Of a stretch of DNA of 64,000 bases, positions 6,420 through 9,968 are shown in pieces; the stretch's first letter is position 1; each line of letters opens with the position of its first letter. The position numbers were made by a program, and so were the translations under genes. The notes beneath the pieces were generated by a model that saw nothing but the letters and a program-made list of their open reading frames with translations, was not told where the DNA came from and did no database searches. Origin of the DNA: Streptomyces sp. NBC_00335 (lineage in GTDB: Bacteria; Actinomycetota; Actinomycetes; Streptomycetales; Streptomycetaceae); NCBI RefSeq assembly GCF_036127095.1, contig NZ_CP108006.1:4340001-4404000 (forward strand). The letters run 5' to 3'.

Positions 6420-7232
6420 TTACGCGGCGCCCAGCAGACGCTCCAGGACCACGGCGATGCCGTCCTCCTCGTTGGAGGTGGTGACCTCGTCCGCCACCGC
6501 CTTGAGCTCCGGGTGCGCGTTGGCCATGGCCACTCCGTGCGCGGCCCAGCCGAACATCGGGATGTCGTTGGGCATGTCTCCGAAGGCGATCGTGTCGGCC
6601 GCCTTCACCCCCAGCCGGCGCGCGGCCAGCGAGAGCCCGGTGGACTTGCTCAGCCCCAGCGGCAGGATCTCCACGACACCCGGACCGGCCATGACGATGC
6701 CGACCAGGCTGCCCACGGTCTCCCGGGCCACCTGGACGAGGGCGTCCTCGTCCAGCTCGGGGTGCTGGATGTACAGCTTGTTCAGCGGAGCCGACCACAC
6801 CTCGGAGGTGTCCTCCAGGTAGAGCGCGGGAAGGCCCTCCTGGACCTGATAGCCGGGGCCGAAGAGCACCTCGCCCTCGACTCCGTCCCGGCTGGCGGCG
6901 ATCGCCAGCGGACCCACCTCGGCCTCGATCTTCTCCAGTGCCAGCGCGGCCAGCTTCCGGTCGAGCGTCACCGAGGTCAGCAGCCGGTGCGCGCCCGCGT
7001 CGTAGACCTGAGCGCCCTGCCCGCAGACCGCGATGCCCTTGTAGCCGAGGTCGTCGAGGACGTGCCGGGTCCACGGCACGGCGCGGCCGGTGACGATGAT
7101 GTGCGCTGCGCCCGCGGCGGTGGCCGCGAGGAGCGCCTCACGCGTGCGCTCCGAGACGGTGTCGTCGCCGCGCAGCAGCGTCCCGTCGAGGTCGGTCGCG
7201 ACGAGCTTGTACGGGAACGGGGCCGTGCTCAC
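6420..7232 (-). CDS. HAD-family (Cof-type, IIB) phosphatase
   Basis: 270-residue HAD hydrolase. Motif [11 protein letters not shown] is near residues 10-19 (nucleophile and acid/base Asp), motif II in IIVTGR, and motifs III/IV in the Lys-containing LGLSKSTGL and GDMPNDIPM, with a C2-type cap between, typical of Cof/YidA sugar-phosphate or flavin-phosphate phosphatases. Start is GTG 7232, overlapping the serS stop (GTGA), so it is translationally coupled to serS. The frame continues 42 codons into serS but that is antisense-like residue. Substrate unknown. Confidence 0.9.
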
Positions 7233-8506
7233 TTGGTGATCGGCTCCAGGACTTCCCGACCGCCCAGGTAGGGCCGGAGCACCGGGGGAACGTGGACCGT
7301 GCCGTCGGCCTGCTGGTGGTTCTCCAGGATCGCGACGATCGTGCGCGGGACCGCGCACAGCGTTCCGTTCAGGGTGGACAGCGGAGCGGTCTTCTTGCCG
7401 TCGCGGTAGCGGATCGACAGGCGGCGCGCCTGGAAGCCGTCACAGTTCGAGGCGGAGGTCAGCTCGCGGTACTTGCCCTGGGTGGGGATCCACGCCTCGC
7501 AGTCGAACTTGCGCGAGGCGGAGGCGCCCAGGTCGCCGGTGGCGACGTCGATCACCTGGAAGGGCAGCTCCAGGCTGGTCAGCCACTGCTTCTCCCAGTC
7601 CAGGAGCCGCTGGTGCTCGGCCTCGGCCTCCTCCGGCGCGACGTACGAGAACATCTCGACCTTGTCGAACTGGTGGACGCGGAAGATGCCGCGGGTGTCC
7701 TTGCCGTACGTGCCGGCCTCGCGGCGGAAGCACGGGGAGAAGCCGGCGTAGCGCAGCGGCAGCTTGTCCGCGTCGATGATCTCGTCCATGTGGTACGCGG
7801 CGAGCGGGACCTCGGAGGTGCCGACCAGGTAGAGGTCGTCGCCCTCCAAGTGGTACACGTTCTCCGCGGCCTGGCCGAGGAAGCCGGTGCCCTCCATGGC
7901 GCGCGGGCGGACCAGCGCGGGGGTGAGCATCGGGGTGAAGCCGGCCTCGGTGGCCTGCGCGATGGCCGCGTTGACGAGGGCGAGCTCCAGCAGGGCGCCG
8001 ATGCCGGTGAGGTAGTAGAAGCGCGAGCCGGACACCTTGGCGCCGCGCTCGACGTCGATGGCGCCCAGGGACTCGCCGAGCTCCAGGTGGTCCTTGGGCT
8101 CGAAGCCCTCGGCGCCGAAGTCGCGGATGGTGCCGTGCGTCTCCAGGACGACGAAGTCCTCTTCGCCGCCGACGGGCACGTCCGTGTGGACGACGTTGCC
8201 GAGGCGCAGGAGCAGCTGCTTGGCGGCTTCGTCCGCCTCGTTCTGCTCGGCCTCGGCCGCCTTGACGTCCTGCTTGAGCTGATCGGCCTTCTTCAGCAGC
8301 TCGGCCCGCTCCTCCGGAGAGGCCTTGGGGATGAGCTTGCCGAGCGACTTCTGCTCGTTGCGGAGTTCGTCGAATCGCATGCCGGAGGACCTGCGGCGCT
8401 CGTCTGCGGAGAGCAGTGCGTCGACGAGGGCGACGTCCTCTCCACGGGCGCGCTGCGAGGCGCGGACACGGTCAGGGTCTTCACGGAGCAGCCGGAGGTC
8501 AATCAC
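7229..8506 (-). CDS. serS: Seryl-tRNA synthetase
   Basis: 425-residue cytoplasmic class II synthetase charging tRNA-Ser. The N-terminal 110 residues form the long antiparallel coiled coil that grips the tRNA-Ser variable arm (Glu/Lys-rich [15 protein letters not shown] onward). The catalytic domain shows GTSEVPL (motif 2 loop area), FRREAGTYG, and a motif 3 in [16 protein letters not shown] [12 protein letters not shown]. Length matches the family. GTG 8506 gives the family-typical MIDL start; its GGAGG is only one base upstream, an unusually tight spacing. The upstream 526 bp carry a DnaA-box cluster. Coupled to the HAD gene downstream. Confidence 0.97.
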
Positions 8507-9032
8507 CCCTCCAGGCTACCGGGCCGGGCTTCCGAGGAGCGCACCGATATCACGCTGCGTGTCACTTTGTCCCAATTGCCGCGAATGGAAAACTTCCTGC
8601 AGGAGGCTGGAAGCATCCCTTCCGTCGGGGCCGATAAAACGGCTCCATTCCCCGAAAAGGGGCGCAACGGCAGCGATCGGGCACCCTCTGAGCAGGAGGG
8701 AAGGGCCTTCCTTGTCCACAGGAATTCCCCAGGGGACCGGCTTATCCACAGGCTGTGTGCCGGATCTGTGGACACAGGAATAGATCAATCTCGACCATGG
8801 GGCGAGCGGGCCCAATCAGGGTTCAAACCACCCTCACACACTCATTCGGGTGGGAATGACTCGCCCCAAAGAGTTGATCGGTGATACAGGGGTGACGCCG
8901 TTCACCTCCCGCTCGTCAGCGCGAAACCTGCGCCACCCGACCGATTTGTCGACCTTGTCGTGTTGCCGTGTCGACTTGTCCCCAGGTCTGCATCGATCCC
9001 TGTGGATAACTCTGTGGACAGTGGACAGAGCG
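8507..9032. promoter_or_regulatory. Long intergenic region with a DnaA-box cluster
   Basis: No gene is visible in these 526 bp between serS and pheA, although they must contain the serS promoter. Matches to the DnaA box TTGTCCACA/TTATCCACA: 8712-8720 TTGTCCACA (plus), 8742-8750 TTATCCACA (plus), 8767-8775 TGTGGACAC (minus), 8976-8984 TTGTCCCCA (one mismatch), 9001-9009 TGTGGATAA (minus), 9013-9021 TGTGGACAG (minus), 9020-9028 AGTGGACAG (one mismatch). Boxes fall in two groups with opposite orientation. A DnaA titration site is the likely role. Confidence 0.75.
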
Positions 9033-9968
9033 TTAGGGGCGCCCGTCGAGGCAACGCGTCAGCCAGTCCGAGGCCGCGGTGAAGTCGCCGTCGGAGGTGC
9101 CGGCCCGGGCGGTCTGGACGTCACCCTGAGCGACACCGGCGCGCGGGTAGGAGCCGAGGAAGCGGATCTGGGGACAGGTGCGCTTGAGGCCCATGAGTGC
9201 CTCGCCGACCCGGCGGTCGGAGATGTGTCCCTCGGCGTCGACGGCGAAGCAGTAGTTGCCGATCCCCGCACCCGTGGGCCGGGACTGGATCAGCATCAGG
9301 TTCACCCCGCGGACGGCGAACTCCTGGAGCAGCTCCAGCAGCGCGCCGGGTCGGTCGTCGCCCATCCACAGCACGATGGAGGTCTTGTCGGCTCCGGTCG
9401 GTGCGGCCGGGCGGGCAGGACGTCCGACGAGCACGAAGCGGGTCTCGGCGTTCTGCGCGTCGTGGATCTCGGTGACCAGCGGGACCAGCCCGTAGGTGGC
9501 GGCCGCGAACTCGCCCGCGAAGGCGGCGTCGAAGCGGCCCTCCTGGACCAGCCGGGCACCGTCGGCATTGGACGCAGCCGACTCCCACAGGGCGTCGGGC
9601 AGGTTCGACCGCAGCCAGTTGCGCACCTGAGGCTGGGCGACCGGGTGCCCGGTGACGGTTTTGACGTCCGACAGCTTGGTTCCGGGCCGCACCAGCAGTG
9701 CGAACGCGATGGGGAGCAGCACCTCGCGGTAGATCATCAGGGGTACGCCGGCAGCCAACTCGTCCAGGGTCGAGGTGACCCCGCCCTCCACCGAGTTCTC
9801 GATCGGGACCAAGGCGGCCGCGGCCTCACCGTTGCGCACGGCGTCCAGAGCGGCCGGGACCGAAACCATCGGGACGAGCTCCCGGGTCGCGGCTTCGGGG
9901 AGGGTGCGAAGGGCGGCTTCGGTGAACGTGCCCTCGGGACCGAGATAGGTGAAGCGGGTGGCCGACAT
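9033..9968 (-). CDS. pheA: Prephenate dehydratase
   Basis: 311-residue monofunctional PheA of phenylalanine biosynthesis (prephenate to phenylpyruvate). N-terminal periplasmic-binding-like fold opens with YLGPEGTFTEAAL; VPIENSVEGGV and NAETRFVLV (TRF motif) are active-site signatures. The C-terminal third is an ACT domain (DRPGALLELLQEFAVRGVNL) that binds Phe for feedback control; the usual ESRP is QSRP here. ATG 9968. No chorismate mutase domain. It stands between the DnaA-box region and dtpA, 42 bp from the latter, so it may be read through from the copper cluster. Confidence 0.96.
   Translation of the reverse strand: MSATRFTYLGPEGTFTEAALRTLPEAATRELVPMVSVPAALDAVRNGEAAAALVPIENSVEGGVTSTLDELAAGVPLMIYREVLLPIAFALLVRPGTKLSDVKTVTGHPVAQPQVRNWLRSNLPDALWESAASNADGARLVQEGRFDAAFAGEFAAATYGLVPLVTEIHDAQNAETRFVLVGRPARPAAPTGADKTSIVLWMGDDRPGALLELLQEFAVRGVNLMLIQSRPTGAGIGNYCFAVDAEGHISDRRVGEALMGLKRTCPQIRFLGSYPRAGVAQGDVQTARAGTSDGDFTAASDWLTRCLDGRP

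Follow-up and report, generated by a model that had tools for sequence, protein, structure and literature searches.

Conserved box plan and whole-turn spacing of a DnaA-box cluster outside oriC, between pheA and serS, in Streptomyces

What does a crowd of DnaA boxes do in the gap between pheA and serS on a Streptomyces chromosome: does it merely hold DnaA, or does it build a defined complex with it? The window analysed here is a stretch of 64,000 nt of Streptomyces sp. NBC_00335, positions 4340001-4404000 of the 9.0-Mb genome; four-digit coordinates below are those of the window, and seven-digit coordinates are those of the genome. The element is the 526-bp gap at 8507-9032. It is flanked upstream by an open reading frame of 311 aa (9033..9968) with its stop at 9033, and downstream by one of 425 aa (7229..8506) with its start at 8506, both on the minus strand. 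We take these to be pheA (prephenate dehydratase) and serS (seryl-tRNA synthetase); serS had been named likewise in an earlier, sequence-only reading of the window. Homologues of pheA were found in all 200 family genomes searched.

That reading had placed the boxes in a cluster outside oriC. We located dnaA at 4258021-4259160 and took the run of DnaA boxes beside it, at 4257293-4257868, as oriC; the cluster (4348712-4349021) lies about 91 kb away and is indeed a separate one. In 46 of 47 Streptomyces genomes, picked for few contigs and a recorded match, the distance from dnaA to the cluster is 76-107 kb with a median of 85 kb; for the remaining genome, G031, no cluster coordinate was listed. 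The distance is greater in some other genera of the Streptomycetaceae, about 154 kb in G453 and 250 kb in G540 (measured by hand). One dnaA, G173:C1:4052779-4054430, came out as two pieces that overlap, one matching family positions 14-311 and the other 309-437, probably owing to a frameshift in sequencing or assembly.

Six DnaA boxes lie at 8712-9021, three of them exact matches to TTRTCCACA and three with one mismatch. The earlier reading counted slightly generously, with five clear matches and two near ones, but the dense cluster it described is there. Next to pheA, the one-mismatch box R1 (CTGTCCACA, 9013..9021, minus strand) stands 3 bp before the strong, exact box R2 (TTATCCACA, 9001..9009, minus strand), the two forming a double box, and the weak one-mismatch box R3 (TTGTCCCCA, 8976..8984, plus strand) is inverted to R2 at 25 bp. 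Towards serS the weak one-mismatch box R4 (GTGTCCACA, 8767..8775, minus strand) is inverted, again at 25 bp, to the strong, exact box R5 (TTATCCACA, 8742..8750, plus strand), and the exact box R6 (TTGTCCACA, 8712..8720, plus strand) lies 30 bp from R5. Box positions and ORF limits thus bear out two groups of mixed orientation in noncoding DNA, as had been claimed. Between the groups there are three further conserved blocks, all given on the minus strand: B1 (GGTCGACAAATCG, 8942..8954), which on the opposite strand reads as a DnaA-like site with two mismatches, B2 (around GATCAACTCTTTGG, 8866..8880) and B3 (TTCCCACCCGAATGAGTGTGTGA, 8834..8856), the last two without known binder. In the 384 kb scanned around oriC no second match to B3 turned up even with 6 mismatches allowed; for B2, two-mismatch matches occur elsewhere.

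The density of boxes had been said to exceed chance, and this held when the gap was shuffled. When boxes with up to one mismatch were counted, 5,000 dinucleotide-shuffled versions of the gap held 0.15 on average and never more than 3, so that none had six. The full 64,000-nt stretch holds 14 such boxes, compared with 5.77 on average and at most 12 in 100 shuffles. Within the 384 kb around oriC there are 0.22 boxes per kb, and at least six boxes in 320 bp occur only in oriC and in the pheA-serS cluster. Exact boxes number 44 genome-wide versus 20 for a reversed control pattern. Two exact TTGTCCACA boxes of opposite orientation, 2 bp apart, were also seen at 3965647-3965666, about 292 kb from oriC.

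The sequence-only reading had suggested that the cluster may be the counterpart of D78 of S. coelicolor, a cluster about 78 kb from oriC. D78, H24 and H69 are probably names of cosmids and not distances, and therefore 78 kb is unsuitable as a distance test; the distance found here is 91 kb. An abstract of 2006 by Smulczyk-Krawczyszyn et al. in J Bacteriol 188:6184 is said to describe three such clusters in S. coelicolor, H69, H24 and D78. D78 reportedly binds DnaA best, its deletion reportedly raises the ori/ter ratio, and extra copies are said to slow growth, copy-number effects that would fit titration. By the criterion used, the 384 kb around oriC likewise contain three clusters outside it, some -38, +34 and +91 kb away (4219752-4219803, 4291813-4291912 and the pheA-serS cluster), and they match the reported trio. 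Furthermore, the serS gene SCO3961 presumably bears the old cosmid name SCD78.28c, so that D78 likely lies in the same pheA-serS gap. The cluster shares with D78 that it is a box cluster outside but close to oriC and one of three. The suggested identity has survived without its distance: a D78 counterpart is what the cluster most likely represents. We regard the element as real and conserved, and as probably an orthologue of a known one.

The two sister clusters differ from the pheA-serS cluster in their gene neighbourhoods. The H24-like cluster (4291813-4291912; L007:11813-11912) lies upstream of a gene that we take to be dnaB, and the H69-like cluster (4219752-4219803; L003:19752-19803) follows a presumed crgA and is next to a presumed rhomboid gene. 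No match to B1-B3 was found in either at the thresholds used. The box spacing of both is rigid too, with changes of mostly about one turn. Among the best 30 of 60 matching genomes, counted by hand, the boxes of the H24-like cluster extend over 80 bp in 23 loci and over 91 bp in 7, the studied genome being one of the latter. The distal box of the H69-like cluster, also read by hand, is 146-149 bp away in 19 of the 22 loci having one, 158-159 bp in 2 and 115 bp in 1; it is missing in 7 of 30 loci, including the clade of the studied genome, and one further locus is incomplete. The H24-like cluster has TTATCCACAGGCTGTGTG in common with R5. A three-mismatch match to this H24-like/R5 composite motif, TTGTCCACAGCCTGTGCACA, lies beside dnaA at 4259925-4259944 and is possibly a dnaA autoregulation site, or a chance match.

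We then compared the gap among Streptomyces genomes. Used as a DNA query, it gave matches in 391 of 392 genomes of the genus, many of them covering only part of the gap. R2, R3 and R5 were found by hand to have the same order and orientation in the studied stretch and in all 80 named loci, which are those kept of 583 and of which 78 are titled Streptomyces. For the measurements 210 loci (209 and the studied stretch) were reduced by 3 without one flank and by 21 identical gaps to 186 distinct gaps, of which 172 were measured automatically and 14, without R6 by the filter, by hand from box lists. One region with an R2-R5 distance of 1775 bp was omitted, leaving 185 gaps. This outlier is presumably locus L132 (G166:C366:23900-27000), where matches to the two halves of the gap are separated by about 1.5 kb and an insertion seemingly splits the box groups.

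In the direction of pheA towards serS, the plan runs R1(+), R2(+), R3(-), the spacer with B1, B2 and B3, then R4(+), R5(-) and R6(-). Its core is two inverted pairs, R2/R3 and R4/R5; in each, the box starts are 25 bp apart and a strong box is joined to a partner that never has the consensus. The R2-R3 offset is 25 bp in 156 of 172 gaps, 24 bp in 14 and 23 bp in 2, and the R4-R5 offset is 25 bp in 171 of 185; for R5-R6 it is 30 bp (141/172), 31 bp (21) or 29 bp (10). The strong boxes are nearly invariant, R2 being exact in 184 and R5 in 183 of the 185 gaps. R1, looked for as a box starting 12 or 13 bp ahead of R2, is present in 121 and was found by this test in none of the other 64; R6 is exact in 151 and missing or degenerate in 14. 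The weak boxes behave differently: R4 is exact in none of the 185 gaps, and R3 has exactly one mismatch in all 185, by way of five different sequences, under a selection that permitted an exact R3. That the weak boxes are kept weak by different substitutions suggests that low affinity is needed.

The second regularity concerns the distance between the two groups. Over the 185 gaps R2-R5 takes the values 185, 194, 195, 248, 250, 256-262, 267-271, 273, 278-282, 288 and 301 bp and clusters at 259, 270 and 280 bp, one helical turn apart. With centre and period fitted to these same data, a series of 259.3 plus multiples of 10.5 is matched to within 3 bp by 181 of 185 distances and to within 3.75 bp by all 185. 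The spacer from R3 to R5, about 235 bp long and carrying the three blocks, is held at nearly constant helical phase. As a control we used the distance from the pheA stop to R2, and changes were inferred by parsimony, with a tree built from 691 flanking columns. None of 33 R2-R5 changes of 4-60 bp fell near a half turn compared with 19 of 95 control changes (Fisher p 0.002), a comparison in which the tree is weak and neither the related genomes nor the inferred changes are independent. Other size limits gave 0 of 33 and 21 of 111. Within 2 bp of whole turns were 25 of 33 R2-R5 changes and 58 of 111 control changes; the remaining R2-R5 changes are mostly of 7-8 bp. Only 7 sister pairs differ in R2-R5, none of them near a half turn, the control having 7 of 26.

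The steps of about 10 bp are also found in the sub-segments separately: 55, 66 and 77 bp for R2-B1, about 74, 84, 93 and 103 bp for B1-B2, 24 and 34 bp for B2-B3, and about 107, 117 and 127-129 bp for B3-R5. Low block scores were omitted, leaving 168, 148, 155 and 173 of the 185 gaps, and the outlying values (B1-B2 31 and 140; B2-B3 -31; B3-R5 64, 74, 86 and 110) include mis-assigned blocks. Of the changes inferred for the sub-segments 0 of 38 are near a half turn, and their occurrence in separate sub-segments argues against a single inherited insertion.

A second sample of 70 loci was measured against spacings predicted beforehand. Under the first filter 14 repeats were dropped, 13 loci with R3 as TTACCCACA were missed and 43 cores were measured, all within 3 bp of the spacing classes. 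Under the second filter 15 repeats were dropped, L371 and L415, both measured under the first, were skipped, and 53 cores were measured. All 53 distinct new cores fit the prediction, 11 of them with non-ancestral spacing and 42 with the ancestral spacing of 258-261 bp, a class that may be favoured by the 260-bp spacing of the query. R3 and R4 are exact in none of the 53; because the filter let R3 pass with no more than one mismatch, the sample shows for this box only that it is not exact. In a literature search aimed at phasing and made without full texts we found no report for Streptomyces, and the rigid box plan and the whole-turn spacing are apparently new here.

The element reaches beyond Streptomyces. 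In other Streptomycetaceae boxes follow pheA in 25 of 30 loci and 14 of 16 genera. The remaining five loci (L257-L261, genera g2 and g5) have no box at up to one mismatch and no serS in the 1.5 kb after pheA, and the element is absent or has moved there; altogether 10 of the 30 loci showed no serS in that distance. Phasing is not evident in these genera, since 16 of 24 distances readable by hand are within 3 bp of the Streptomyces classes and about 57% would be by chance. Outside the family 40 loci were chosen among the matches (100 of 118 genomes matched, 8 of these in the genus). Over about 2 kb behind pheA (0.7 kb at one locus) none of them has an exact box, and 4 of the 40 carry one box with a single mismatch within the first 600 bp. 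In 12 of the 40 serS lies at most 400 bp after pheA, again without exact boxes. An ancient actinobacterial origin of the element was dropped because these 40 loci are without exact boxes over that distance. The element thus belongs to most of the Streptomycetaceae genera sampled, and the phase lock is seen in Streptomyces only.

These regularities bear on the question posed above. If the element were a plain sink, the boxes would merely hold DnaA and only the number of strong boxes would count. The high box density near oriC and the copy-number effects reported in 2006 are what titration would give, and R1 and R6 vary among species, as a sink would allow. However, in a sink the boxes should be free to vary in spacing and orientation and the weak ones should drift, whereas we found inverted pairs fixed at 25 bp, weak boxes that never reach the consensus and no half-turn changes of spacing. 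Simple titration of DnaA, which the sequence-only reading had in mind, leaves both the conserved pattern of strong and weak boxes and the whole-turn spacing unexplained, and we consider it unlikely as a full account. Judging from the sequence comparison, the reading that we favour as fairly probable is that of a negative regulator of initiation of the D78 type, which would form a defined, phase-held DnaA complex like those of datA or DARS.

Since the element lies directly upstream of serS, DnaA bound there might also act on the serS promoter and couple translation capacity to the replication cycle. A consensus-based scan of 8400-9150 for promoters and terminators detected nothing. A further conserved motif, B5 (GATATCGG, 8544..8551, minus strand), lies 45 bp before the serS start, at 44-47 bp in 160 of 185 gaps, and is perhaps part of the serS promoter; it replaced a first candidate, B4, which scored low in many sequences. 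The modal R5-B5 distances of 176, 188, 199-200, 209, 220, 231 and 242 bp are about 10-12 bp apart, and sco3961 (serS) is among the ScbR/ScbR2 ChIP-seq targets tabulated in PMC4595836. The periodicity of the distance list failed in the comparison of single events, and phasing towards the serS promoter was rejected: 12 of 57 R5-B5 changes are near a half turn, much as in the control (19/95), and so are 6 of 13 sister pairs. R6 is in addition about 160 bp from B5, and the 12 loci outside the family that keep serS close behind pheA do so without exact boxes. Control of serS is distinctly unlikely to be the function of the element.

A different objection concerns the phasing itself: steps of about 10 bp could be a mutational habit of Streptomyces spacers instead of the outcome of selection for phase. 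Sizes of 9-12 bp are indeed the commonest in the control stretch too (21/95), and the control distance shows a slight 10.5-bp period of its own (mean cosine 0.17, p 0.005 versus uniform). The control also contains 22 of 95 changes of 13-19 bp besides those near a half turn, and R2-R5 has neither among its 33. With so many other change sizes in the control, a preference for indels of about 10 bp explains part of the pattern at most, and as the whole explanation it appears decidedly improbable.

The inverted pairs could instead work in the manner of DARS and reactivate ADP-DnaA, promoting initiation. An oppositely oriented box pair is likewise a core feature of E. coli DARS1 and DARS2. Their core comprises boxes I-III, and according to PMC5742627 a head-to-head contact between the DnaA molecules bound to boxes I and II is prominent. 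DARS reactivates DnaA, whereas the expected effect of the pheA-serS element is negative, and the direction of an effect cannot be told from sequence. The reported S. coelicolor phenotype is that of a negative element. We hold a DARS-like function to be very unlikely.

That the clustered boxes mark a cryptic second origin or a duplicate of oriC is almost certainly wrong, as the gap has a G+C content of 0.55-0.68 in every 60-bp step and no AT-rich stretch of the kind used to recognize the unwinding element of oriC, and dnaA is 90 kb away. An RNA leader was considered as well. The sole Rfam match in 8300-9200, with E 1.7, is far below the gathering score. When 20 sequences were folded to a consensus, R2 paired with R5, with z-scores of -40 on one strand and -26 on the other against column shuffles; this was not taken as evidence for an RNA because inverted DnaA boxes pair by themselves, and the RNA leader was rejected for want of Rfam support.

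The regulator that we favour, one acting through a defined complex, has parallels in E. coli. According to PMC11317965, datA contains a double box with a 3-bp gap and the linker gag before TTATCCACA, and R1-R2 has the same gap and linker. Like datA, the element is a cluster near oriC with groups of boxes flanking a spacer. datA acts with IHF, and a minimal region of 262 bp drives the hydrolysis of DnaA-bound ATP (PMC5742627). Its IHF site lies between box groups; here B1-B3 lie between the two groups at near-constant phase. For S. coelicolor itself, two reviews state that DnaA-box clusters near oriC are datA-like and repress untimely initiation (PMC4585315; PMC5742627). In Bacillus subtilis, a lineage unrelated to this one, DnaA-box clusters near oriC have a negative effect on initiation as well. 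Okumura et al. reportedly showed in 2012 that these clusters repress initiation.

If the cluster is, as is most likely, the D78 counterpart, it would thus be a brake on initiation. Situated about 91 kb from oriC, the element would be duplicated soon after initiation. DnaA would first fill the strong boxes R2 and R5, after which ATP-DnaA would occupy their weak partners R3 and R4, and the two DnaA groups would meet across the bent or looped spacer in a defined complex. A bending protein might sit on the conserved non-box blocks of the phased spacer. The complex would sequester DnaA and perhaps alter its nucleotide state, as E. coli datA or DARS do. The idea of a specific complex arises from the rigid anatomy, that is, from the R1-R2 double box, the inverted pairs of strong and weak boxes and the phased spacer with its blocks. 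Weak boxes are bound better by S. coelicolor DnaA when ATP is present (PMC3411110), so that the weak boxes here may reasonably be regarded as a candidate sensor of ATP-DnaA. A bolder version can also be proposed, namely a looped, phase-locked machine with an obligate code of strong and weak boxes, in which the weak boxes would sense ATP-DnaA and a bending protein of Streptomyces would be recruited by B1-B3. Such a machine, in place of a titrating sponge, would act on the DnaA nucleotide cycle as the actinobacterial counterpart of datA/DARS, and H24 and H69 would follow the same rules. This version is tentative, and we would lean slightly against it as a whole.

How initiation is limited in Streptomyces, with many chromosomes per hyphal compartment, is little understood. 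The conserved anatomy of the pheA-serS element turns this into a testable question, namely whether the element works as a sink, for which the number of boxes would matter, or as a built complex, for which phase, order and the weakness of the boxes would.
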